Shown piece by piece: positions 8,208 to 63,332 of a stretch of DNA of 64,000 nt (the first letter of the stretch is position 1; every line of letters starts with the position of its first letter). Under the pieces are notes generated by a model, which saw only the letters and a list, made by a program, of their open reading frames with translations, was not told the origin of the DNA and searched no databases. The DNA lies in contig JAIVFI010000007.1 in NCBI GenBank assembly GCA_025558095.1, positions 682,001 through 746,000 of the forward strand, written 5' to 3'. Source of the stretch: Hyaloraphidium curvatum (lineage: Eukaryota > Monoblepharomycota > Hyaloraphidiomycetes > Hyaloraphidiales > Hyaloraphidiaceae). The position numbers and the translations under genes were made by a program.

Positions 8208-11126
8208 CTACAACCTTGCAACGCCTGCAAAGGAAGCAAGACCTGCCTCCTGTCTGGCTACAACACGAGCAGCATAGTACATCCCATGCGCATATGCAGC
8301 AGCAACCTTGTTTGCATCATGGGCAATGTATGACGTGAGGGAGAGCCAAATGATGGCAAGCCATGCATGATGCCGGACTGAGAAACACGCCAGTGCCTCG
8401 GATGGCCAGTCAGCAAGACCATCCTTGATGGTGGCATCTCCAGCTGCAGAAACAGGCAACCCGTACTGGACCGCAGAGTTTAGGGCATCGTATCCCGAAA
8501 GTGCATAGAGCACCTTGGCTTGGTCGTACTCAGGTGGGCCATAGATCGAAGTCTCCCCGAAGTAACCCCTTGGGTCAATAAGTGCAAGGTTCCTGCCGTC
8601 CTGGGACACGAGAACGTTGGAAAAATTGACGTCTCCATGGATCAGAGTGTAACCGGCATCGCGGGAGCCCGATCTCCAAGCAAGCACCGAATGACAGGCC
8701 GCTGCCACGGCGGCCACATCCCCGCCAAAGGGCAACGGTACGCCGTTCACGCTGCGGATGCCAAAGTGCCGCCAAATGGTCTCCACCGAGGCACAGCGGG
8801 ATATGACCTTGTCGAGCGCCTCGATGCGCAGGTCCCGGGCGGCTTGCTCGGGCGTGGGCTGCGACGGCGCCGGCACAGCGTGAAGCGGAGCAAGCAGGCC
8901 CAGCACGCGGCGAACGAGGTCGGCGGTACGCCTTGCACAGGGATCCCCATCCAGCCAGACTGCGACCGGGATGCCGTCGATGGCCTCCATGGTAAATGAG
9001 GCTGCAGCATCGTCGACATGCAGGATCCGAGGTGCGCGTATGTCCAGCTCCTTCACGGCGTCGTACCAGGCGAGCTCGCGTGCCTGCAGAGCCCGAGCAG
9101 GGTCCGTAAGCGCGGTCTTGCGCACTCCCGAGTCGCCGACACGTTCAACGCGGTTGAACGGTCGGCTGACCATGTCGTCGGCGCCGCCACGGGCGGCACC
9201 GGCTGCCTTTATGGCCGCGGCGTACTTTGCGGCGTCCCCAACATCGAGCAGACCGGGGAGAGCGACGGTCTCAAATGCACCAAAGTTGTCGACAAACACG
9301 TCGGCCACATCCTCGCCGTCCGTCCAGTGGCGGAGCCCGCGGAAACCGTGCACGAGGTACAGGCCGACAACGTTCCCGCCTCGGCCGTCGGGCAGCTTGT
9401 CCAGGCGCCCATCGCGAGCGAGGTAGCGGCACTGATCTCCGTGCACAAACACGGTCGTGTGCCGCTGTCCGAGGCACGTACGCAGAGCATCGGCTGAAGG
9501 AGCCTCGGGCACGATGTCGCCCCATGCAATCAGCAGGTTGGATCCCCAATCCTTGCGCCCCAGGGTGTGCGCCACCGTGGCGGCAGTGCCGTCAATGCGG
9601 TCGTACGTACGGATCTCGATGCTCCGGATGCCTCCGGCGGATGCATCGTTCTTTCGGGCCGCAAGGTAGGCGTCGGCGTAGAATTGCGTCAGATCGGCGT
9701 GAGCGGGTCGTACGATGATGATGGCTCGTTCGGTGACGGTGCCGTAAGCGTCCAGGATGTGGTCGAGCAACGGGCGTCCATCCAGCGGAACCAGGGGTTT
9801 AGGCACATCCTTCGTCATGGGATAGAGACGCGTGGCAGCCCCGCTTGCAACCAGCACGACTGCATCAACGGCGCGGGAGCTGCTCTTTCCAAGCAAGCCT
9901 GCGGGGTGCCTTCGCTGAAAGGTCGACGACGAGACCCCCTTTGCCTGGGCGACCGCGACACCGAGAACGTCCAGGAACGCCATCAATGCGGCCGAGGAGA
10001 CGGTAGGGGCCATGTTGATGTTGTCGATCTCGACGAATCCCTTCTCGCTCATGCAGGCCGAGAAGTCGCAGGCCGATGCCAGCGGCCCTCCCGGCTGCAG
10101 GGTGATGGCGACCTGCAGATTCCCGAAGCCCGCATCGCGTACGTAGCTGGCACATTTCACCAGCTCCTCCGTGGTGCCAGAGTTGGACACATATACGAGA
10201 AGATCGTCCGGAGCGATGCCGCCAAAGTCGCCGTGGAAGAGGTTGGGCACGCTCGCAGTCTGCGCTCGCAGCCCCATCGAAGTCCAGGTAGAAACCGACT
10301 TGGCAGCCACCAAGCCGCACTTGCCGATGCCGAGCAGATAGGTGTGGCCGCGACACGAGGCCACGAGAGGCACGAGCCACCGCAGGGCTGATCCACCCTG
10401 CTCGGGCTGCAGAACCTCGCGCAAAGCGCTTGTGTAGAGGCGCGCCGACCGCTCGACGAGCATTTTGATGGCAGGAGCCTTGCCGACGGCGAAGCGATCG
10501 AGGAGCTCCAGCCGAAGGTCGGCGAGAGACTTGACCGTCTTGACTGAATGATCAGCGGCACAAGCGGCCACGCAGCCGGCCGGGCACGACTCGACTGCGA
10601 TGCACGGCAAACCGGCCGCACGGGCAGCGGCGATACCCCGCGGCGTGTCTTCGACGGCGACGGCGGCGCGGGCTGCGGGGTCCAGGGCCAGGGCCCGCAC
10701 GAACCCCTCGGGAGAGGGCTTGGAGGCTTTGCACACATCGCGCGTGACGAATCGCTCGACGGCACGCAGCTCGGGGTGCGCGGCCTTGAGCGTGGCCAGC
10801 GACGCCGAGCTCGAGTGCGTCACGATGCACGTCTCGATGCCGGCCGCGGTGAGGGATCGCAGCAGTTCTCCCGCGCCTGGGGCCAGCGGCGGCGGCGAGC
10901 GGCGGAGGGCGGCGGCGTATGCGCGCGCCTTGGCGTCGCGCAGGCCCGGCAGGCCGCGGACCGACGGCGGCTCGACGGGCTCCGTCGCGTGCTGCATGGC
11001 GCAGTACTCTTCGGCGGTCAGCGCCGGGCGCCCGAACGACGCCAGCGCCTCATTGTACGCGGCGTGGTGCAGCTGCTCGCTCGCGATCAGCGTGCCGTCC
11101 AGGTCGAACAGCACGTAGTCGACCAT
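8208..11126 (-). CDS. Four-domain fusion: HAD phosphatase / KpsF-like SIS isomerase / sugar nucleotidyltransferase / APH-type kinase
   Basis: A 972-residue single-exon protein joining four enzyme domains. Residues 1-210 are a HAD phosphatase of the CbbY/beta-phosphoglucomutase type (FDLDGTLIASEQ, THSSSASL, K in SKPSPEGF, VEDTPRGIAAA). Residues about 220-415 are a SIS domain close to KpsF/GutQ arabinose-5-phosphate isomerases (LFHGDFGGIAPDDLL, SNSGTTEEL, MAPTVSSAALMAFLD, HPAGLLGK). Residues about 425-650 are an RmlA-like nucleotidyltransferase (ASGAATRLYPMT, KPLVPLDGRPLLDHIL). Residues about 660-950 are an aminoglycoside/choline-kinase-like phosphotransferase (LIHGDVNFSNVLV, then LALIDPRG). 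Together these could isomerise, dephosphorylate or phosphorylate, and nucleotidylate one sugar, as separate bacterial capsule or LPS enzymes do; the substrate is unknown. I chose the ATG at 11126 because it starts two codons before the HAD motif; an open frame continues upstream to 11348 but shows no conserved residues. Confidence 0.85.
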   Translation of the reverse strand: MVDYVLFDLDGTLIASEQLHHAAYNEALASFGRPALTAEEYCAMQHATEPVEPPSVRGLPGLRDAKARAYAAALRRSPPPLAPGAGELLRSLTAAGIETCIVTHSSSASLATLKAAHPELRAVERFVTRDVCKASKPSPEGFVRALALDPAARAAVAVEDTPRGIAAARAAGLPCIAVESCPAGCVAACAADHSVKTVKSLADLRLELLDRFAVGKAPAIKMLVERSARLYTSALREVLQPEQGGSALRWLVPLVASCRGHTYLLGIGKCGLVAAKSVSTWTSMGLRAQTASVPNLFHGDFGGIAPDDLLVYVSNSGTTEELVKCASYVRDAGFGNLQVAITLQPGGPLASACDFSACMSEKGFVEIDNINMAPTVSSAALMAFLDVLGVAVAQAKGVSSSTFQRRHPAGLLGKSSSRAVDAVVLVASGAATRLYPMTKDVPKPLVPLDGRPLLDHILDAYGTVTERAIIIVRPAHADLTQFYADAYLAARKNDASAGGIRSIEIRTYDRIDGTAATVAHTLGRKDWGSNLLIAWGDIVPEAPSADALRTCLGQRHTTVFVHGDQCRYLARDGRLDKLPDGRGGNVVGLYLVHGFRGLRHWTDGEDVADVFVDNFGAFETVALPGLLDVGDAAKYAAAIKAAGAARGGADDMVSRPFNRVERVGDSGVRKTALTDPARALQARELAWYDAVKELDIRAPRILHVDDAAASFTMEAIDGIPVAVWLDGDPCARRTADLVRRVLGLLAPLHAVPAPSQPTPEQAARDLRIEALDKVISRCASVETIWRHFGIRSVNGVPLPFGGDVAAVAAACHSVLAWRSGSRDAGYTLIHGDVNFSNVLVSQDGRNLALIDPRGYFGETSIYGPPEYDQAKVLYALSGYDALNSAVQYGLPVSAAGDATIKDGLADWPSEALACFSVRHHAWLAIIWLSLTSYIAHDANKVAAAYAHGMYYAARVVARQEAGLASFAGVARL

Positions 11127-11530
11127 TGGTCGCGGTGACTCGATGGGGATCGCGGTGACGAGTAGGTCCTTAGTACCGTTTACAGAATGAACGGAAGCCT
11201 CTGAGAAACCAACAACTAAGCCAACCACAATACCTCCCGGCATCCTGCTCGTACTACGGCGATTGGTTACGCCGACTCCGGAGCAATGAACCCTACCTCC
11301 ATTTGTTTTGGTTCCTGCTCCCGCCCGCCGGGGTCTTCTCAGTATCACTGATCGCCCGGAGAAACCGAGCCCGCGGATAGATGCCCCGCCCGATCAAAAC
11401 ATCATTGCATAGCTCAGTCGGGATCGGATCGGCCACGACCCTTGCTTTCGAGAGCGAACTCAAGATCGCAAGAGTTGACCGTTGAGCGGGATCGTCACAC
11501 ACACAGGAGTCGTTGGAGGGCCAAAAGACC
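11127..11530 (-). other. Fanzor 3' flank (possible guide-RNA region)
   Basis: About 400 bp lie between the Fanzor stop codon and the start of the fused sugar-phosphate gene; no gene is seen. In TnpB and Fanzor loci the guide (omega) RNA is normally transcribed from the 3' end of the nuclease gene into the transposon end, so this is where it should be sought. I cannot identify a transposon terminus or a conserved fold by eye. Confidence 0.25.
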
Positions 11531-50502: not shown

Positions 50503-50549
50503 GTATGTAATGAGGAGCTAGCAATCCCACCGTACACTTAGAAATCCCC

Positions 50550-53500
50550 CTACGCCCCAAGAATCAGCTCCTCATCTACATTCAAACCAAAAGCGACCGG
50601 CGCGGGGGCCGGAGCGTTGACAGCGGCGGCTTCGGTGCACAGCTGAAGCCAGTGTTGGAGTTGGGCCGCGACGCCAAGAGCCCAGGCCACCGCGATCCGT
50701 TCGCGGAAGCGCCGCACAAAACGAGAGTAAAGGCCATCGAGGTCCACGGGCTGCCCATCGCGGCCGACGATCCCGGGATACTGGATGCGCCCCATCTCCG
50801 AGGAGAAGCGCGAGAAAGTGGCAGAGACAGCGCTGTACGAATCAAAAGCAAGCACGATCAGAGGGTAGAAGTTGGCGTTGAAGACGAAACGGGAGTAGTC
50901 CTTCCTGGCGGCCTCGACCCGCCGTTCGACTGCGTGGCCCGGGACCGAGAAGACCAGGCCCGTGTGCAAATGGGCCATAGAGGTGAGGGTCTTGATCTCG
51001 AGCAACCACCGTTTCCGGGTTTCGCGGTGCGTGATGAGAATGTCGCCAAGGCGGCCAGCATCCGCAGGCGTGGGCGGGGTGACAGTCTCGTAGCCATGCG
51101 CAAGGAGGTTTGGCGGCATGGGGTGCACGCGGAGGAGCGGGATGGAGCGAAGCGCCGCGCGGATGGCCGCGCAAATGTCGTCGTGACCAGGACTGAAGAG
51201 ATCCCGGCCATAGCAGCCCGAGAACGCGTGCTCCCCCGTCAGCGCCATGGCCGATCGCTTGCAGCCCCGCCGGCAGGGCAAGGAAAGACCAGGGTAGTCG
51301 GCCTCGTGCAGGAGCGGGAGGCAAAGCCGGAAGCGTACAAGTAAGCGGAAAAAGTTGTTGCGAATGTGGTTGGCAAGCAGCGCGGGAGAGGCAGTCAGGA
51401 AAGCCGACAGGCCGTCCTGCGCCTGGACGAGCCGCTTGCGGCGCTCCAGACCAGCGGAAGTGTCGGGTTGCAAGGCAATCAGAGCCGCGAGGCGGCGCTG
51501 GTCCTCGAGACGCGTAAGGTCGCTCTGCAGGCCGTGCCAGACCGGCTGAGCGAAGAAACTGGCGTCCGCAGGGAGCGTACGGCGGGCGGGCGCGGCGCCC
51601 ACCGGTTGCCCAGCACGCGCAGCCTCGGCGTACGCTGCGGCCGTGTCATCCTCGACACGCTCAAAGGCGGGGCGGAGGGCCTCGATGACGGGAACCAGTT
51701 CCCGCACGTGCTCCACGCCCACACCCCGGGCCGAGGTTCGAAGACCAAGCATGGCGTCCAAGGGGCCCGCCGTGAGGTTGAGTGAAGACAGGTAAGCCGC
51801 CGAGGCCACCTTCTCCGATGACAGAAGCCCCATCCCCGAGTAGTGCAGACCCAAGAATACCTGCTCCCGCACAGTCCGACCCTCCACCGACAGCGGATCC
51901 AGATCCTCGGCCCGATCTCCCAGCAAGCGCAAGAAGGTGGTGAAAAGCGCGTTGTCAAGACGTCGAGCAAAGGGTTGGGTAACCGAGGGGGGGAGAATGC
52001 GGAGCCAAAACGAGAAGAGCTGGGTCACACAGAGACGGAGGAGGGAGTACAGGCCCTGGAGGGAGGGGATGTCGGCCGGCATGGCGTAGCCGAGCGCGGC
52101 GCGCTCGATGTCATCGAGAAGAGCGGCAATGGAGTCGATCTTGGCCGCGAGGAACGACTCCACATAGGCAGGGGTGCCGACCGGGGCACCTACCACCTTG
52201 AGGCCGCACGAGCGAGCGAAGTCAGGCGAGCCCGGGGCCGACGCCGTGGCATGCACCTCGGGGTCGGCCTCGTGAGGCGGGAAGCCAGCGACGCGGATGT
52301 TGTGGGCCGCACCGGCCGCGCGCACCCACTCCAGCACGGCCGGGTTCGTCGAGAGCGAAAGCAGGTAGCTCTTGTCCGGGCGGTGGGTCATGCCGAGGGA
52401 AGAAAGGCCGTCACGCACCTCTCCCAGGACGGCCATGACCGAGTCCAGCGGCCCGACCACGGTGAGGTCGTCGAGGTACCCAAGGATGAGGCAGTCGGGG
52501 TGCCCAGAGCGGATGGGCCGCAGCATGCGGCTCATGGCGCAGGAGAAGATGGCAGACGCCAGCGGGTCGCCCTGGATGTTGCCCTCGTACATGGTGATCC
52601 GGAAAAGGAGCTCCGCCGAGCGCCGGTCGCGGAAGTAGGCGTGGGAAGGGCGCGAGTAAACGAGGTTGTAGTACGGGATAAGCTGAGGCACCTGGCGGAC
52701 CACCTCGCGCGCGAAGAGGCGGCGCAGCGTATTGAAGGCGTTCCTAGAGTCGACCTTCATGACGACGTGGTCGGGGAAGGCCGCCAGCCACGCGTTCACC
52801 GCGTGGGCGGTCGCCTCCGCGCCCCCGTCCACCCCGTGACCCAGGTCCTCCTGCTGTTGGAGCTTCCTCAGAAGAGCCTTGTGCCGCACGGCCAGGTACG
52901 AGCCCGCGAGCCGCGTGATGCCCTCCATAATGCCAATCGGCCGGAGCCCCCCCTCCGGCTTGAGCAGAGGGACGAGGATTTGATCCGTGAGGAGCGGCCG
53001 GAGCATGGGGGTGTCGAGTCGGCCAGTGCACACGCCATGCACCATGGCCGCCAGCGGGCGGAGCTTCCGCCGCGTCGCGTCGTTCTCGCAGTTGTGCACG
53101 ATGAAAAGTTTGGCCATGCTGAAACCCGACATGCCGGCCCCCACGCCGTCCTTCTTCCGGCGCAACCGGGCCCAGATGTCCTCCAGGAAAGCCGCGTCCG
53201 TGTAGGCAGGGCAGGGCGCGGGCGCGTTGGGGGGCAGAGACAGCCGACACAGCGGCTCTCCCTCCCGCGGCCCCGGGTACAGCTCCTCCAGTTCCGCCTG
53301 AAGCGTGGGCGTGAAGCCAGCCGGAACGGCCTCCCCCGAGAGGGCCGCGGACGCAGCACCAGGAGCGCCCTTCAAGGCGGCAAGCACGATGGACTTGAAG
53401 AGCTGGTAGTTGAGCGGCCGCAGCCCGTCCCGCCGCGCGCCCCGGTTGACCTGACGGGCGGCGAAGTAGTTCTGCTCGTACATGTAGTCCCCCGACATGA

Positions 53501-54461
53501 CGTAGCCGCCAAACGCAAGGTAGGCGGTGAGAGTGCGGTGCAGGTCGGTTTCCGGCGCCGCCGGGTCCTCGTAGGCCCGTTGGAAAGACTCGCTGGCCCG
53601 GAAGGCGAGCGCGCTCCAGGTGGTGGTCCGGTAGCGGTGCTTCAGCGGCTCCGGCGGCGGCGCCCCCGCGCCCCCGCCCGGCGGCGAATCAGGCCCGGGA
53701 CCCCCGGGTGGACCACCGTCGCCCGGGTCGCCCGGATCACCGCCGTTGCCGTGCCCGCCAGCCGCGGCGTTGCCGCCCGGCGCGCCGTCGCCGCCTGGGG
53801 GATCACCGCCGTCCGGGGCGGCACGCGCCGCCGCCGCCGCCGCCGCCAGCGCCGCCCGTTGCGCCTGGCCGTCCTGCGGGGCGTCGGCCGCAACCCGGGC
53901 GGCCGCAAGGGCCGCCATCAGCGCGGGCGCGGGTGGCGAAGCACGGGGAGATGCCGACGATGCCGCTGGTGACGCCGGTCCCTCCGCGCGTCCCGTGGCA
54001 GCCGCCCGCTCGGCACGCACGCGGTCGAGGAACTCGACGAGATCGGGTGGAAGCGAAGCTAAAGAGACGCCAAGTGGCGGGTTAGCTGCGTCCGGGTTGC
54101 ACGAGGTGTGCTGTCCAGAAACACCGGCACCAGAGGCGTTTGCGGCGTAGGGACGCCGGCAACCCCCGCACCGCGCTAGCCCCATGGCGCGCAACGCATC
54201 GGCAGACAGGCGCTGCATCGCCAACCAGTGCTCCGGGCTCCGTGTGACCCGAAGATGACCGTCCCGTTTGTTTTTGTTTGGAGTTGGCTGGAAGCGGCAA
54301 CCATCAACCGGGCACTCATGGAGGCCGGGTTCAGCAGGCGCCTCCGCCATCGGCACATCGCCGTCGATGCAAGATTGGTGATGATGAGATAGAGCTCCGA
54401 TGTTGGCGAAAGCTGCCGCGCAGCGGTGGCAGCTGTAAGGCAGGAGCGGCGTGCGGCTCAT
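50550..54461 (-). CDS. LINE ORF3: zinc finger, reverse transcriptase, restriction-like endonuclease
   Basis: A 1,303-residue polyprotein. Residues 11-31 form a C2H2-like finger (CHRCAAAFANIGALSHHHQSC), with a second Cys/His cluster at 50-121. A Gly/Pro-rich linker occupies 200-270. The reverse transcriptase spans about 455-720 (RPIGIMEGITRLAGSYLAVRH, VMKVDSRNAFNTL, NIQGDPLASAIFS, catalytic LGYLDDLTVVG at 661-670, then THRPDKSYLL). The C-terminal part has a CCHC knuckle (CRRGCKRSAMALTGEHAFSGC, 1063-1083), followed by a PD-(D/E)xK restriction-like endonuclease core (GRLGDILITH, RWLLEIKTLTS, near 1136-1160). This is the architecture of RLE-type LINEs such as R2, NeSL and Hero; no APE endonuclease is present. 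The start ATG overlaps the previous stop as ATGA. Confidence 0.92.
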   Translation of the reverse strand: MSRTPLLPYSCHRCAAAFANIGALSHHHQSCIDGDVPMAEAPAEPGLHECPVDGCRFQPTPNKNKRDGHLRVTRSPEHWLAMQRLSADALRAMGLARCGGCRRPYAANASGAGVSGQHTSCNPDAANPPLGVSLASLPPDLVEFLDRVRAERAAATGRAEGPASPAASSASPRASPPAPALMAALAAARVAADAPQDGQAQRAALAAAAAAARAAPDGGDPPGGDGAPGGNAAAGGHGNGGDPGDPGDGGPPGGPGPDSPPGGGAGAPPPEPLKHRYRTTTWSALAFRASESFQRAYEDPAAPETDLHRTLTAYLAFGGYVMSGDYMYEQNYFAARQVNRGARRDGLRPLNYQLFKSIVLAALKGAPGAASAALSGEAVPAGFTPTLQAELEELYPGPREGEPLCRLSLPPNAPAPCPAYTDAAFLEDIWARLRRKKDGVGAGMSGFSMAKLFIVHNCENDATRRKLRPLAAMVHGVCTGRLDTPMLRPLLTDQILVPLLKPEGGLRPIGIMEGITRLAGSYLAVRHKALLRKLQQQEDLGHGVDGGAEATAHAVNAWLAAFPDHVVMKVDSRNAFNTLRRLFAREVVRQVPQLIPYYNLVYSRPSHAYFRDRRSAELLFRITMYEGNIQGDPLASAIFSCAMSRMLRPIRSGHPDCLILGYLDDLTVVGPLDSVMAVLGEVRDGLSSLGMTHRPDKSYLLSLSTNPAVLEWVRAAGAAHNIRVAGFPPHEADPEVHATASAPGSPDFARSCGLKVVGAPVGTPAYVESFLAAKIDSIAALLDDIERAALGYAMPADIPSLQGLYSLLRLCVTQLFSFWLRILPPSVTQPFARRLDNALFTTFLRLLGDRAEDLDPLSVEGRTVREQVFLGLHYSGMGLLSSEKVASAAYLSSLNLTAGPLDAMLGLRTSARGVGVEHVRELVPVIEALRPAFERVEDDTAAAYAEAARAGQPVGAAPARRTLPADASFFAQPVWHGLQSDLTRLEDQRRLAALIALQPDTSAGLERRKRLVQAQDGLSAFLTASPALLANHIRNNFFRLLVRFRLCLPLLHEADYPGLSLPCRRGCKRSAMALTGEHAFSGCYGRDLFSPGHDDICAAIRAALRSIPLLRVHPMPPNLLAHGYETVTPPTPADAGRLGDILITHRETRKRWLLEIKTLTSMAHLHTGLVFSVPGHAVERRVEAARKDYSRFVFNANFYPLIVLAFDSYSAVSATFSRFSSEMGRIQYPGIVGRDGQPVDLDGLYSRFVRRFRERIAVAWALGVAAQLQHWLQLCTEAAAVNAPAPAPVAFGLNVDEELILGA

Positions 54462-55309
54462 GGCGAATACGGTGGCGGCGGCGATGCCGGTGTCCCGCCG
54501 CCAGGATCAGCTACCGCGGACGGTGCCTTGTCCGACGAGATCTCCCAATCGTCGAGCGCATGTGTCCGCATCCAAACCTCCTGTGACTCGGTCAGGTCGC
54601 CCCCCGCCCTGTGCCAGGCCGCAAGCGCCGACCACGCGTCACCGATAGCATCACGGCCGCCGTCATCGAGGAGCTCGGAACCTGGCCATTCGAGGTGCGC
54701 CGGCGAACCGGGCTCCGTGTGAGCATACCAAGGAGGCAAGGTGCGCGTCGGAGTGGATACTTCCGAGGAGCTCTGCCCCCCCCCGGCCGTTGGTGCCGGC
54801 GGCGTGCCGGGGGTTGTGCGGGGCGGCGCAGGCGGCAGCTGCAAGCTCGGCACGGCGGTTGCAGCTGGGGTTTCCCACGGAGGATGGCCTGGGTGCGCCG
54901 AGAGCATGGAAGCGGCCGAAGCCGGGGCATCAGCGATCAAGATCTGCGATGACGAGGAGGGAGATACTTCCGAGCATGCCGCCCCTTTCCCCCCCGCTGG
55001 TGCCGGCAAGCGGGAGGAGCCGCGGGGCGGCGTGGGCAGAGTGTGACCCTCGGCCAAGCTAGGCACGGCATTTGGCCGAGGGGCCCCGGGGGACGCGGGG
55101 TCAATGTCGGAAGTCTCCCCTGCTGCCGCGAACGGCCTCGGAACTCGGTGAGACGTTGTAGATAGTGGTAGTTGGCGTACCGGTGAAGACTGCAAAACAG
55201 CAAAAGATGGAGGGGCTGACCGCGCCCGGGAGGTATCCGGACGAGCTCGGCGCCGAGAAGAGCAGCCCACTACTCGGCGTTGCCACTTGCTTGGTGGTGT
55301 TTTAGGCAT
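54458..55309 (-). CDS. LINE ORF2: Pro/Ser-rich protein of unknown function
   Basis: A 283-residue frame lying exactly between ORF1 and the RT ORF. Its ATG lies inside the last codons of ORF1 (ATGCCTAA, 8-nt overlap), and its TGA overlaps the ATG of ORF3 (ATGA). It is rich in Pro, Ser, Ala and Thr, starts basic (MPKTPPSKWQRR), and includes a Trp-rich block near residues 190-265 (LPPWYAHTEPG, AWSALAAWHRAGGD, EVWMRTHALDDWEIS). I recognise no domain. The precise overlaps and intact frame argue that it is translated. Alternatively it is a linker translated by frameshifting or reinitiation. Confidence 0.65.
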   Translation of the reverse strand: MPKTPPSKWQRRVVGCSSRRRARPDTSRARSAPPSFAVLQSSPVRQLPLSTTSHRVPRPFAAAGETSDIDPASPGAPRPNAVPSLAEGHTLPTPPRGSSRLPAPAGGKGAACSEVSPSSSSQILIADAPASAASMLSAHPGHPPWETPAATAVPSLQLPPAPPRTTPGTPPAPTAGGGQSSSEVSTPTRTLPPWYAHTEPGSPAHLEWPGSELLDDGGRDAIGDAWSALAAWHRAGGDLTESQEVWMRTHALDDWEISSDKAPSAVADPGGGTPASPPPPYSP

Positions 55310-57467
55310 TCAAGGACGGTGAGCCAGGAGCCGGCAGCAGGGATCCGGTTGACGTGGAGGCGGCCTTGGCCTGGGGGAAGCCGAGCTTGCGAACGGCCGC
55401 CTTGGCCTTCCGTTCCGCTTTGGCGGATTTGACGTCGATTTGCTGATACGGCTTGGCAACCTTGTCCGGGTTTGTCCCTGCCACATCCTCCACGGGACGG
55501 CCCTTGCCTGCGTGCTTGGGGCCTGGGGCCATCGTAGGATCACCAACCGCGGATGCCCCAGCGGCCTCATCGGCCGTGTGCATGTCTTCGCTTGGTGCCT
55601 CCGAGTTCGAACCATCGCCCTCAGCAGAGGCTTCGGAGGCGGCGTCGTTTCCACCCGAGGCCTCAGAGCCGGTGGCATCCTCCTCCATCGCAGATTCCGT
55701 GCCCTCCATTGCGGGAGCAGCAAGCTCCAGATCCTCCAGCGCGGTATTGGCTGCAACCTGCTGTGCAGCACTGCTGATGGCGTTCTCAGCGGCCAGCTGG
55801 TCGGCACCACCCATGTCCTCGTCCCCATCCTTGTCAGCCGGCTCCAAAATGGGAAGACCATGGAAATCCATCTTTTCGGCGGCGTCAGACTCCCCCCAAT
55901 CGACCGAAGCACCGGCACCACCACCACCGAGTGCCGAAAACCTGTTGTGGGACGCCTTGGCCACTGGCTGGGCAAGAGCTGGGGGCGCAGAGCCTGCGCG
56001 CTTGCCGGACGGCCCAGCTGTAAGCCACTCGTTGGCCGCAGGGGCGGTGGGGGAAGCCAGATGCGGAGGAACGACCTCTTCCCTCAGGGGGGGCAGCCGC
56101 GGGGTCGTGGCGGGCTCCACCGTTGGGGGAGAGAGCCGTACGTTGGCCGGGTTGTGAATGCAGTCCGCCTCGTGCGCACGGCGTGCTTGCGGGCTGGCAA
56201 AGGCGCCGGGATTCATGCGGTTGAGACCGTCTGGGCAGTAAGCACAGTTGGTGCACGTGGCATCGTCACCGACGTGGCCGCCCGTGCGCTTGCAGTGGCC
56301 GCACTGTCCGTTGCTACTGTCATAGCGGACAGCTGGGCGAAGGAGCTTGTGCTGGAGGAGTGTCCCCCACGAGTCAAGGAAGCAGTACGAGGGTGGGCCA
56401 ATGCGTGCTGCGCGGTCAAAGAAGGCATCAACCCCGCACTGCGAGACGTCGAAAGTGACCCGCCAGAAGGCGTTGCTGTCGGTGCCCGAGATGGGAGCCG
56501 CTTCAATGACTTGGCAAGGGGCCCCATAGTGGTTCTGGAAAGTCGCGTAGAGGCGGGCCCACCAGTCCGGGCACTCGTGCACCGAACCAGGGACGATCAT
56601 GGGCCCGATCTTGAGCTCGGCGTGCGTGTCCTTGAAGACAGGGTGGATGCGCAGCCGACGCGTCGGGCCGTTTGGGAACTTGACCTCCAGCACCCCCTGC
56701 TCCACCAAGGCGTTGATAGCGTCTGCCCCGTCGACAGCACCAACAACACAGAAGAGGTCCAGTCGCGAGTAACGCGGGTTGTAGCCTCGCGTCTCGGTCG
56801 TGAAGACGGTGGTGGGGAAGGTCGCCTTCGCCACGGCTTCGGCGACGACGCGCCGTCGGTCCTTTGGCACACCGTTGAGGTCGATGAGGCAGTGGGGGAC
56901 AGGCCCAATGAAGGCCGGCGTGTAGCCCCGACCGTTGGCGTGCGGTTGCACCCGATCGATGAGCTTGGCGTAGTTGGTGGGCGCCGAGAAAGGCATGGCA
57001 GAAGCCAGATGCTCCGCCATCGCGCCGTCCGTGACACGAACAATCGGGCGGTCGGGCGAGGTGCGCGACGTTGCTGCGGCGAAAGAGCGAGACCCCAGGC
57101 GCGTGGCGGGGGCGGTTGCTTTCGGGAGACGATTCTGCGGAGCCGGCTCCTCCCGGGCGCCGCCGTTGGCGGACGCGGGGCGGATTTCAGTGGTCGATTC
57201 AGCAGCGTCCTCCTTAGAACCTGTCAGCTGAGCCGTAGCACCAGCGGGGGCCGGCGCGGGCTCCTCTGCCGCGCCAGGGAGGCGAGGAGAGGCAGCGACG
57301 CCGGGAGCGTGGGAAGAGTGGACGGGATTCGCAAGCGCCTCCGAGGAGGCCGCGGCGAGCGCAGGGGAGACCTTGCCATCAGGCAGGACCACGGGAGCGG
57401 CCGCATCATTGGGCCCCTGCCCTGTGTCAGGGGGGTCCATTCCGGGTAAAATTGACGGCGGCGGCAT
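55302..57467 (-). CDS. LINE ORF1: gag-like protein with zinc knuckle
   Basis: A 721-residue gag-like protein. The N-terminal 140 residues are Pro/Ala/Ser-rich. The middle (150-390) is a globular region with an RRM/esterase-free fold reminiscent of other LINE ORF1 proteins (IDLNGVPKDRRRVVAEAVAKATFP, YSRLDLFCVVGAVDGADAINALV, WWARLYATFQNHYG, FWRVTFDVSQCGVDAFF). A Cys-rich knuckle follows (CGHCKRTGGHVGDDATCTNC, then AYC and H-x3-C), likely nucleic-acid binding. The C-terminal third is acidic and low-complexity and ends in a basic stretch (KSAKAERKAKAAVRKLG). In this copy the first Met is the very first codon after the 5' junction, so the native N-terminus may be longer. Confidence 0.85.
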   Translation of the reverse strand: MPPPSILPGMDPPDTGQGPNDAAAPVVLPDGKVSPALAAASSEALANPVHSSHAPGVAASPRLPGAAEEPAPAPAGATAQLTGSKEDAAESTTEIRPASANGGAREEPAPQNRLPKATAPATRLGSRSFAAATSRTSPDRPIVRVTDGAMAEHLASAMPFSAPTNYAKLIDRVQPHANGRGYTPAFIGPVPHCLIDLNGVPKDRRRVVAEAVAKATFPTTVFTTETRGYNPRYSRLDLFCVVGAVDGADAINALVEQGVLEVKFPNGPTRRLRIHPVFKDTHAELKIGPMIVPGSVHECPDWWARLYATFQNHYGAPCQVIEAAPISGTDSNAFWRVTFDVSQCGVDAFFDRAARIGPPSYCFLDSWGTLLQHKLLRPAVRYDSSNGQCGHCKRTGGHVGDDATCTNCAYCPDGLNRMNPGAFASPQARRAHEADCIHNPANVRLSPPTVEPATTPRLPPLREEVVPPHLASPTAPAANEWLTAGPSGKRAGSAPPALAQPVAKASHNRFSALGGGGAGASVDWGESDAAEKMDFHGLPILEPADKDGDEDMGGADQLAAENAISSAAQQVAANTALEDLELAAPAMEGTESAMEEDATGSEASGGNDAASEASAEGDGSNSEAPSEDMHTADEAAGASAVGDPTMAPGPKHAGKGRPVEDVAGTNPDKVAKPYQQIDVKSAKAERKAKAAVRKLGFPQAKAASTSTGSLLPAPGSPSLNA

Positions 57468-58230: not shown

Positions 58231-60021
58231 CTACCGCTCGGCCCTTTTTGAGTTACCTTCTCCTGCCATCGCTTTTGCTGCGGCGAAGTACTTCCTCATC
58301 GACGTTTGTACAGCTGCGCCCGAGTTTCGAAGCAGGGCGTCCACGTTCTTAGCAACCACGTTGAGGCGCGCCAGCACCTTGTCTTTGTCGAGCGGCGGCT
58401 CTGGGGTCCATTCCAGAGCTTCCAACACCTGAATCATCAGGTTCTGAATCCTCTTGGAGGAATCGACCACGAACTGCTGGGCACCTTCGACTTCCAGCTT
58501 CTCCATCTTGTCCCGGAAGCGGATGACTCGCATACCCGAGGCCAGCAGGTGGTGCGTCTTTTTCTCATCTTGCTCGCGAACTTCGTCGGTGCCGTGACGA
58601 TACGTTCCATCGAACTCAATGGCGACATGGCGTCCCTCGACTTCAATCACGGCATCGGGGGAGATCCGGCCCGAAACAAAGTCTTGTGATTTTGGTGCTG
58701 CAACAGTCCGCTTCATGGCTTCCACGACGACATCCGTGGCCAAGTCGGGCTCTTCCGGCCACCGACTGCCGAGTAGGCAGTACATGGTCGCAACAACGGC
58801 ATGGATCTCTGGCACCGAACGACCAACGAGGAGTTTGCCACAGGTTCGCTCATCTCCAGTGCAGCAGGACATCCGGCTGCCGTGTTCGCAGGGCAGATGC
58901 GTTTCCCTGTGCTTGGTAAGATCACTGCTTCTGGACATTGCAACATGGCATTGGTTACCATCCGAGCCAATGATGCCACAGATGTAGGGCCTCTCGCCCG
59001 TGTGGATCCGGATGTGCGACCTCAAGGCGCTGGGGTCGGAGAACGCGCTCTCGCAAGATGTTCCGTCAGGAAGATCGCAGATGCAAACGAAGGGTTTCTC
59101 GCCGGTGTGGATGCGCTTGTGGTTCGTGAGCGAGCTCTTCTGCACCCATCCTTTTCCACAAACACTGCCATCCGGCAAAGGATAGTCGCAAAAGAACTTC
59201 TTCACCCCAAGATGAAAAGCTACGTGTTTGTCTCTGTTACCGGAGTAAGCAAAGGCCTTCTCACAGATGTCGCAAAGGTATCTCAGGTTCTTGGTGTGAA
59301 CACTGTCTCGGTGGCGGCTACGAGCGCTCATGTCAGCGAAGGCGGCAGTGCACTTGGTCCCATCCTCGAGCTCGAAATCGCAAACGAATGGTTTTTCCCC
59401 CGTGTGCGTACGCAGATGGTTCTCTCTCGCCCATTTCGTGGGGAAAGCCCTGATGCAGGGCCCTTCATCATCAAACTTGAAGTTGCACACAAACGTCTTT
59501 TCACCGGTGTGAGTGAGAATGTGTCTGTTCCGTGTGGCGCTTTGCGTAAAGGCCTCCTGGCACGGTGTTCCGTCCTCGAGCTCGAAGCCGCAAATGTGGG
59601 GGCGCTCTCCCGTGTGCGTCAGACGATGCGTGTTTCGGGCTCCGATATCACTAAAAGCTTTAGGGCAATCTGACCCGTCTTTGCGCTTTAGCCCGCACGG
59701 ATACCTGCGCTCCCCCGTGTGCGAAGCCATGTGTCTGTCGCGAGCGCCACTTTGCGTGAACGCCTTCTGGCACTTCGTACCGTCCTTAAGCTCATAATGG
59801 CACACAAAAGGACGTTCCTTGGTGTGTGTTCGGATGTGGCGGACCCGAGACGATGCGTCCGCGAGCACAGCGGGGCACAAGGAGCCGTCGGGGAGTTCGA
59901 AACCGCAAGGGACGCCGCCCGGGTCCCCCGGGGCTCGGTTCGGCCGTCTCCCGCGCCCAGAGGGCCCCGTGGGCACCACTTTCACCAAGCCATCGTGCTG
60001 AGCGACCGATGAGTCGCTCAT
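58231..60021 (-). CDS. Ten-finger C2H2 zinc-finger protein fused to a PD-(D/E)xK (Vsr/DUF559-like) nuclease domain
   Basis: A 596-residue intronless protein. Ten tandem zinc fingers occupy residues 39-375, joined by TGE(R/K)P-type linkers. Nine have an expanded knuckle, C-x9-C (e.g. CGFELEDGTPC), and finger 7 alone has the classical C-x2-C; all end H-x3-H or H-x4-H. Fingers 1-7 have Arg where the helix usually has Leu (position 4), and fingers 8-10 have Leu. After a Cys-rich bridge (CEHGSRMSCCTGDERTC), residues 400-505 match the Vsr/DUF559-type restriction-like fold: VPEIHAVVATMYCLLG (helix Glu405), SPDAVIEV (Asp456), VAIEFDGTYRHG (Glu469, Asp471, His476), EQDEKKTHHLLASGMRVIRFRD. The C-terminal 70 residues are helical and basic. 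It has the make-up of a natural zinc-finger nuclease. The nuclease call is from motif order; activity is an inference. Confidence 0.8.
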   Translation of the reverse strand: MSDSSVAQHDGLVKVVPTGPSGRGRRPNRAPGDPGGVPCGFELPDGSLCPAVLADASSRVRHIRTHTKERPFVCHYELKDGTKCQKAFTQSGARDRHMASHTGERRYPCGLKRKDGSDCPKAFSDIGARNTHRLTHTGERPHICGFELEDGTPCQEAFTQSATRNRHILTHTGEKTFVCNFKFDDEGPCIRAFPTKWARENHLRTHTGEKPFVCDFELEDGTKCTAAFADMSARSRHRDSVHTKNLRYLCDICEKAFAYSGNRDKHVAFHLGVKKFFCDYPLPDGSVCGKGWVQKSSLTNHKRIHTGEKPFVCICDLPDGTSCESAFSDPSALRSHIRIHTGERPYICGIIGSDGNQCHVAMSRSSDLTKHRETHLPCEHGSRMSCCTGDERTCGKLLVGRSVPEIHAVVATMYCLLGSRWPEEPDLATDVVVEAMKRTVAAPKSQDFVSGRISPDAVIEVEGRHVAIEFDGTYRHGTDEVREQDEKKTHHLLASGMRVIRFRDKMEKLEVEGAQQFVVDSSKRIQNLMIQVLEALEWTPEPPLDKDKVLARLNVVAKNVDALLRNSGAAVQTSMRKYFAAAKAMAGEGNSKRAER

Positions 60022-60092: not shown

Positions 60093-60405
60093 TAGTAATG
60101 AGGAGCTAGCAATCCCACCGTAAAATCGCCCCTACGCCCCAAGAATCAGCTCCTCATCTACATTCAAACCAAAAGCGACCGGCGCGGGGGCCGGAGCATT
60201 GACAGCGGCGGCTTCGGTGCACAGCTGAAGCCAGTGTTGGAGTTGGGCCGCGACGCCAAGAGCCCAGGCCACCGCGATCCGTTCGCGGAAGCGCCGCACA
60301 AAACGAGAGTAAAGGCCATCGAGGTCCACGGGCTGCCCATCGCGGCCGACGATCCCGGGGTACTGGATGCGCCCCATCTCCGAGGAGAAGCGCGAGAAAG
60401 TGTCA
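60093..60405 (-). mobile_element. 5'-truncated copy of the three-ORF LINE (3' end only)
   Basis: It matches the 3' end of the LINE at 50507-50820 with only a few substitutions and a short indel just after the ORF3 stop. It encodes roughly the last 90 residues of ORF3 (RFSSEMGRIQYPGIVGRDG to the stop), so it is a dead-on-arrival insertion. TGCCCAAG occurs at 60081-60088 and again at 60425-60432, a possible 8-bp target-site duplication with a few extra bases at the 5' junction. It lies between the zinc-finger nuclease gene and the amidohydrolase. Confidence 0.88.
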
Positions 60406-60440
60406 GAGCGGTCTCTACGGGCTTTGCCCAAGAACAAATA

Positions 60441-63212: not shown

Positions 63213-63332
63213 GCGGGGTCTCGGCCCCGAGGCGATCGGTGCGGTAGGGCGGCTGGGCGGCCCGATTTCAATGCGGGGTCTCGGCCCCGAGGCGATCGGT
63301 GCGGTAGGGCGGCTGGACGGCCCGATTTCAAA
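63213..63332. repeat. Two-copy 60-bp tandem repeat
   Basis: Two adjacent 60-bp units differ at about one base in the core. Each contains the self-complementary CTCGGCCCCGAG. The period is 20 codons, so the downstream end of the LINE frame on the minus strand reads the repeat twice in phase. Confidence 0.8.

Follow-up and report, generated by a model that had tools for sequence, protein, structure and literature searches.

Does a single fungal gene join a zinc-finger address for DNA to an enzyme able to cut beside that address, and if so, what does such a protein serve? The question is raised by P0001, a gene in a 64-kb stretch of the genome of Hyaloraphidium curvatum, a chytrid-grade fungus (contig JAIVFI010000007.1, positions 682,001 to 746,000; this whole stretch of 64,000 nucleotides is called the window). 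A preliminary description of the window had proposed that ten C2H2 fingers and an ordered set of restriction-fold residues lie in one uninterrupted frame. The coordinates and strand given for that frame proved exact: 58231..60021 on the minus strand holds 596 codons, hence a protein of 596 residues, without any internal stop. From N- to C-terminus, P0001 consists of C2H2 fingers, a Cys/His motif, a nuclease-like domain and a tail, which supports a fusion in which a single gene of an early-diverging fungus joins a C2H2 array to a Vsr-like domain of the restriction fold. We consider it likely that P0001 is a natural zinc-finger nuclease, one of a small H. curvatum family that would combine a cutter of the EDxHD type with a tether to PCNA in a setting of genetic conflict. 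The sequence lends good support to the molecular side of this proposal (zinc-finger nuclease, homing-endonuclease-type cutter, PCNA tether); DNA cleavage, reading of an address, PCNA binding and a role of P0001 in conflict are what we infer from it.

The ten fingers span residues 39-375 (58897..59907, minus strand) and start at residues 39, 74, 109, 144, 179, 214, 250, 278, 313 and 348. Nine of them have the spacing C-x9-C and the remaining one C-x2-C. They were recognized by the C2H2 pattern and by two Pfam families, zf-H2C2_2 (E 3.8e-37, 124.9 bits for a cut-off of 40) and zf-C2H2 (E 2.5e-18, 65.8 bits for a cut-off of 25.2). The pattern matched 11 times in the six frames of the window, and ten of these matches fall inside the P0001 frame. 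Together with the zf-H2C2_2 score this places the array far beyond chance, and a chance frame was thus ruled out. Fusion by annotation error is unlikely as well, because the P0001 frame is unbroken and a sister locus, C15, is deposited as a single protein that carries both the fingers and the domain (P0003, DFJ74DRAFT_670374). The Cys/His motif CEHG....CC......C (LPCEHGSRMSCCTGDERTCGK; residues 378-394, 58840..58890, minus strand) stands directly before the nuclease domain. It was modelled at a predicted local distance difference test (pLDDT) score below 50, which is not confident; Cys-rich motifs occupy the corresponding place in those relatives whose aligned piece extends that far. In Pfam, P0001 gave no match to DUF4379 (PF14311) at E up to 10, and the scan found neither a HEPN nor a helicase domain.

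The nuclease domain, its distant relatives and the C-terminal tail

The domain covers approximately residues 400-540 (58402..58824, minus strand) and is indicated by Pfam, by profile comparison and by the structural model. Every residue named in the preliminary description (E405, D456, E469-F-D471, H476 and K487-K488) was located at its position, all on the minus strand. E405 (58807..58809), the first conserved acidic residue, aligns with a residue in 17 rows, 16 times E and once Q; at D456 (58654..58656) 17 of 18 rows carry D, and the remaining row has a D two columns away. In the triplet E469-F470-D471 (58609..58617) the E is found in 16 of 18 rows and the D in all 18, H476 (58594..58596) is kept in 17 of 18, and both D and K are invariant in the stretch from D485 to K488 (58558..58569). 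The proposed active-site residues are thus kept in at least 16 of the 17-18 sequences compared, and P0001 retains every conserved one. Conservation of the acidic residues in homologues had been named as a point on which the nuclease reading could fall; it did not. The structure prediction likewise gave an alpha-beta core of the type expected for a PD-(D/E)xK enzyme, and many rows in the list of structural matches to the model are restriction-fold nucleases. None of the 50 structural matches listed is a Vsr entry, which excludes nothing.

Comparison with Pfam situated the domain near, and below the curated cut-offs of, two families: full-length P0001 matched MTES_1575 at E 0.0019 and DUF559 at E 0.0074, and the domain alone matched them at E 4e-4 (PF18741; 20.8 bits, cut-off 38.2) and E 0.0018 (PF04480; 18.5 bits, cut-off 20.6), respectively. 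P0001 did not match Pfam Vsr (PF03852) at E up to 10. With the same limit, five of six fungal members matched MTES_1575, two matched DUF559 and one matched Vsr (E 0.054). The cut-off of 38.2 is also missed by six of seven phage relatives and by one bacterial relative (L032). A search of PDB with the single P0001 sequence did not find 3r3p at E up to 10, all of its rows (best E 0.038) being judged irrelevant, and a PHROGs search gave nothing firm (best E 0.045). With a profile of 18 sequences and a limit of E 10, PDB yielded exactly one match: I-Bth0305I, an EDxHD homing endonuclease (3r3p; E 7e-7). It also ranked first with a profile of five fungal sequences alone (E 1.2e-4). The nuclease assignment of P0001 is therefore weak on its own sequence and firm only with its relatives. 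As for the Vsr/DUF559-like label originally proposed, the relationship to Vsr within the restriction fold stands; the closest solved structure by sequence is I-Bth0305I and not Vsr itself. By profile, predicted fold and residues, the domain belongs to the Vsr-like/EDxHD-type branch of the PD-(D/E)xK superfamily, and DNA cleavage is predicted.

Relatives of the domain were also found outside fungi. Scanning of prokaryote genomes with the fungal profile yielded 13 loci, and all 13 translated products are long proteins with Cys-rich repeats, judged by eye, and the same nuclease domain. The two that were scanned in Pfam both contain DUF4379; for one bacterial protein (L035), the whole sequence matched DUF4379 and gave no MTES_1575 match at E up to 0.1. 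Viral contigs contributed at least nine loci when a mixed profile was used, and none with the fungal-only profile or with the protein of sister locus C28. The seven of these nine that were scanned all match MTES_1575, one of them above the cut-off. One of the seven has NUMOD3 repeats and one has DUF4379 zinc repeats, in both cases above the cut-off, while four have Cys-rich stretches by eye (with zf-FCS matching weakly in two) and one has neither. We also noted a viral-contig protein in which the Vsr-like domain is joined to a weak Mom-family match (L074:2237-3049; E 8e-4).

The tail of P0001 contains a canonical PCNA-interacting protein (PIP) box, QTSMRKYF (residues 572-579, 58285..58308, minus strand), predicted to bind PCNA from its match to the consensus. 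The published consensus is Q-x-x-h-x-x-a-a, and in non-canonical forms the Q or one of the aromatic residues may be missing (PMC6116012). QTSMRKYF is the sole canonical PIP box of P0001; after shuffling of the protein, one was present in 142 of 20000 sequences. The five sister members have [ILM]-x-x-[FY]-[FYLM] near their ends, at the place read as corresponding; this pattern was picked after the tails had been viewed, so that tail shuffles provide no p-value for it. PIP-like sequences are also found at the possible start of the open frames of C15 (MQDIRRFL) and C17 (MADIRAYF), and hydrophobic-acidic stretches such as MIVLDSDDDD, which look like SUMO-interaction motifs, occur in C15, C10 and C17. 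P0001 has neither a PIP-like start nor such an acidic stretch.

Sister loci and change in the finger arrays

The H. curvatum genome (31.9 Mb, 55 contigs) contains five loci bearing the domain besides P0001, hence six in total. A six-frame search with the domain alone retrieved five places including P0001; it missed C8, whose domain was recognized by eye. In four of the sister loci the domain lies behind a C2H2 array. C15 is a single frame in which the pattern matches 11 fingers, one match being out of register, and the start of the deposited hypothetical protein lies downstream of the possible start of the frame. The fingers of C10 are split over two overlapping frames (8 and 7 fingers), C17 has 18 fingers and an in-frame TGA where the domain begins, and in C8, which has 11 fingers, the reading frame changes within the domain. 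The TGA of C17 (L028:2720-2722, minus strand) falls on a Cys/Ser position, and a nonsense mutation is its likeliest origin; an intron might account for frame changes in the sister copies. In the fifth locus, C28 (P0004; L029, minus strand, approximately 3140-2000), zinc motifs of the type CEHG..C..CGG replace the C2H2 fingers before the nuclease domain, and the E of E-x-D is replaced by F. The preliminary description had recommended looking for the same fusion elsewhere. Searches of 5.8 billion proteins, which required shared 5-residue words and limited the protein length, found no C2H2 fusion outside H. curvatum. Matches in the protein databases were P0001, three H. curvatum proteins and one PF14311 protein (source 'lgn', E 0.0057), and one of the searches scored the best 8000 candidates only. 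Because of these word, length and candidate limits, absence of the fusion elsewhere is not proven.

We then compared the evolution of the two parts of these proteins. In pairwise comparisons of C15, C10 and C17, the nuclease part has a ratio of nonsynonymous to synonymous substitution rates (dN/dS) of 0.13-0.22, for dS of 1.4-2.2. The nuclease domain of these three sister copies is thus under purifying selection. Ratios involving P0001 (0.40-0.57) come from sequences too diverged to interpret. For the fingers, change at the base-contact positions -1, 2, 3 and 6 was compared with that in every set of four non-ligand positions, using the fingers with the main spacing (16 of 18 in C17, 9 of 11 in C15, 5 of 8 and 7 of 7 in the two parts of C10, 11 of 11 in C8, 8 of 10 in P0001) and ignoring relatedness among fingers. 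The contact value was reached by only 9 of 2380 sets in C8, 17 of 2380 in C17 and 31 and 9 of 2380 in the two parts of C10; in C15 the signal is weak (186 of 2380). In the P0001 array, 2945 of 7315 sets reached it, that is, contact positions show no excess of change. The C8 array has a pN/pS of 1.19 at contact codons and 0.34 elsewhere. Seen directly, the C8 fingers (L030:2542-3483) are eleven 90-bp units whose differences lie mainly at DNA-contact codons, a pattern shared with fast-evolving arrays such as that of PRDM9. These comparisons of sequence suggest that the family diversifies its addresses, in four arrays and weakly in a fifth, and that the P0001 array carries no such signal.

Genomic setting and possible roles

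P0001 had been said to sit between two copies of a long interspersed nuclear element (LINE), and this is borne out. Downstream, a LINE copy occupies 50507..57467 (minus strand), with an RVT_1 frame at 50550-54506 and an open reading frame (ORF) at 55302-57467 that has a Cys-rich stretch and is taken for the first ORF of the element. On the upstream side, a 3' end of the same LINE family, 314 bp long (60095..60408, minus strand), comes within 73 bp of the start codon and encodes the end of the LINE reverse transcriptase frame. It is 93-98% identical to at least 40 other places in the genome (40 of the 65 candidates were scored; 41 rows including itself). The insertion appears to be young, and the P0001 promoter may have suffered from it. 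The guanine-cytosine (GC) content is 0.577 in the P0001 gene and 0.643 in the window, and that of third codon positions (GC3) is 0.67 in P0001 against 0.908 in the adjacent amidohydrolase ORF. Comparison of the flanks of the six copies revealed no common sequence besides fingers and nuclease, save a 127-bp extragenic stretch in C15 and C28, and the copies were seen to share neither terminal repeats nor an insertion site. There is thus no sign of insertion at one cognate site, since the flanks are unrelated. As an empty-site probe, the left flank of P0001 gave partial matches only (71-88%), and the right flank is LINE. A target site predicted by applying a recognition code by hand had no match in the genome at up to 3 mismatches. 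Elsewhere in the window, 63213-63331 is a tandem pair of units of about 60 nt (98% identity) in a stretch that by eye resembles a LINE fragment, and a 1061-residue frame at 8208-11393 (minus strand) matches HAD hydrolase, SIS, nucleotidyltransferase and APH-type kinase domains in series, an unusual fusion.

The C8 copy lies in a different environment. It sits among genes that share tandem 14-bp repeats (GTCACCATGAAAGT) near their starts. A 27-base probe, allowed up to 3 mismatches, had 15 matches in the whole genome, all of them within C8:502072-530193, and its reversed control had none; by eye, a TATA-like sequence adjoins five of the six repeat clusters displayed. The same interval (L045-L048) is a GC-poorer island of about 30 kb, which contains a recombinase-like protein, a DUF5906 protein (E 2.7e-13, above cut-off), F-box proteins and the zinc-finger nuclease. 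The recombinase-like protein carries, by our reading, a tyrosine-recombinase signature; its Phage_integrase match (E 0.0018, 18.5 bits) is below the cut-off of 27.1. Its relatives are found on C35, C26 and C30, with fragments on C10; a Pfam scan of the relative on C35 was negative at E up to 0.1. The copies on C35 and C26 each have, about 3 kb away, an ATPase that matches Pox_A32 (E 8.6e-12 for that of C35, which was scanned; that of C26 is 98% identical), so that at both L065:3663-8840 (C35) and L066:4267-9332 (C26) a recombinase-like gene neighbours a packaging ATPase of the Pox_A32 type. On C35, a relative of the DUF5906 protein follows some 18 kb further on. Inside the C8 island no match to the Pox_A32-type packaging ATPase was obtained; a search for the capsid family PF04451 was also negative and is uninformative, as its control matched nowhere either. 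From their gene content, the C35 and C26 loci are likely integrated viruses of a chytrid-grade fungus, and the C8 island is probably an integrated virus-like element. The C8 copy would then place one zinc-finger nuclease of the family in a mobile or viral setting, and it says nothing on the origin of P0001.

On this basis we propose that the C2H2 array holds P0001 at a DNA address, beside which the Vsr-like (EDxHD-type) PD-(D/E)xK domain would nick or cut by means of metal ions bound to the E405/D456/E469-x-D471 set, and that the C-terminal PIP box tethers the protein to PCNA, which would direct its action to DNA under replication or repair. An endonuclease of homing type may have travelled between the host genome and elements of mobile or viral nature, its copies being partly kept by selection and partly broken. 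Genetic conflict is the most likely setting of the family, since the C8 island, the partly broken copies and the fast-changing contact residues fit it best. As a rival reading, it is possible, though we would not presume it, that P0001 is a free-standing homing endonuclease gene which cuts alleles lacking it and spreads by copy-repair, with fingers in place of NUMOD or treble-clef modules. The closest solved relative of the catalytic domain is indeed a homing endonuclease, relatives on viral contigs couple the domain to NUMOD3 or DUF4379 (one of seven each), the GC and GC3 of P0001 are lower than those of its surroundings, and several copies exist, some of them broken; however, the unrelated flanks of the six copies, which share nothing beyond the 127 bp of C15 and C28 and give no sign of a cognate site, and the unmatched hand-derived target argue against it. 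A host defence, in which a diversifying set of zinc-finger nucleases would recognize LINEs, DNA transposons or virus-like elements and cut them during replication, is a similarly tentative explanation. It would account for contact positions being the fastest to change in four of six arrays and weakly so in a fifth, for purifying selection on the nuclease of three copies and for the PIP box of P0001, in a genome that is rich in near-identical LINE ends and contains virus-like elements. Yet the P0001 array lacks the contact-position signal, the hand-derived site has no match in the genome, and the copy within the probably virus-like island points equally to a weapon of the element.

Two further explanations were considered. 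The PIP box of P0001, the PIP-like tails throughout the family (six of six, P0001 included) and, by our reading of the motif, the SUMO-interaction-like acidic stretches of three sister copies recall a replication-coupled repair or structure-specific nuclease, whose fingers would hold DNA or chromatin in general, on a plan like that of PCNA-bound repair nucleases; Vsr itself acts in mismatch repair. We regard this as unlikely: by these searches the family is confined to a single species, it is multi-copy and partly broken, and in most arrays its fingers change fast, none of which would be expected of a core repair enzyme. That nuclease activity has been lost, leaving P0001 as a DNA-binding protein with a vestige of the domain or as a gene in decay, seems improbable. 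C28 lacks the E of E-x-D, other copies are broken and a LINE fragment lies immediately upstream of P0001, but P0001 retains every conserved residue and an intact frame of 596 codons, and sister domains are under purifying selection. The broadest version of the conflict reading, a self-diversifying set of natural zinc-finger nucleases, each a PCNA-riding cutter of homing type, passed between virus-like elements and host as re-addressable weapons acting at replication time, is offered as a speculation that we think rather doubtful as a whole.

Comparison with known systems

The closest counterpart of solved structure for the P0001 catalytic domain is that of I-Bth0305I (PDB 3r3p), to which it is homologous. 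In EDxHD homing endonucleases, a long DNA-binding region is linked to the catalytic domain (PMC3943268). The PDB entry 3r3p bears the label 'mobile intron protein', whereas P0001 is a fungal genomic gene with ten C2H2 fingers; the aligned 3r3p chain, possibly mutated, has N and A at the positions of D471 and H476. Bacterial and phage proteins that combine DUF4379, a treble-clef zinc repeat, with a Vsr-like nuclease offer the nearest architecture, an array of small zinc modules placed before the homologous nuclease or interrupted by it, but their modules are DUF4379 and those of P0001 are C2H2. MTES_1575 and DUF559 are the best Pfam matches of the domain, yet P0001 scores below both curated cut-offs; MTES_1575 was described as a 'novel Vsr-REase' of the Vsr fold, found in fusions with HEPN, transglutaminase and further domains (PMC3710099). 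Among the matches listed for the open-licence PMC literature, judged by title and the start of the abstract, no report of a natural nuclease with a C2H2 array and a restriction fold was found.

Single proteins that unite a zinc finger, a nuclease and a PIP box also occur among PCNA-bound nucleases such as ZRANB3 and SNM1A, whose nuclease folds and zinc-finger types differ from those of P0001. A C2H2 array joined to a restriction-fold nuclease is, to our knowledge, an engineering design, best known from the laboratory. If the H. curvatum family is what it appears to be, evolution arrived at the same tool as zinc-finger nuclease engineering, a new nuclease domain and the C-x9-C finger geometry would become available to genome engineering, and it would become testable whether eukaryotes set protein-addressed DNA cutters against mobile elements and viruses. 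Compared with engineered zinc-finger nucleases, which join a C2H2 array to the FokI domain, P0001 is natural, appears by sequence to belong to another nuclease family, and differs in its ten fingers of mostly C-x9-C spacing and in its PIP box.
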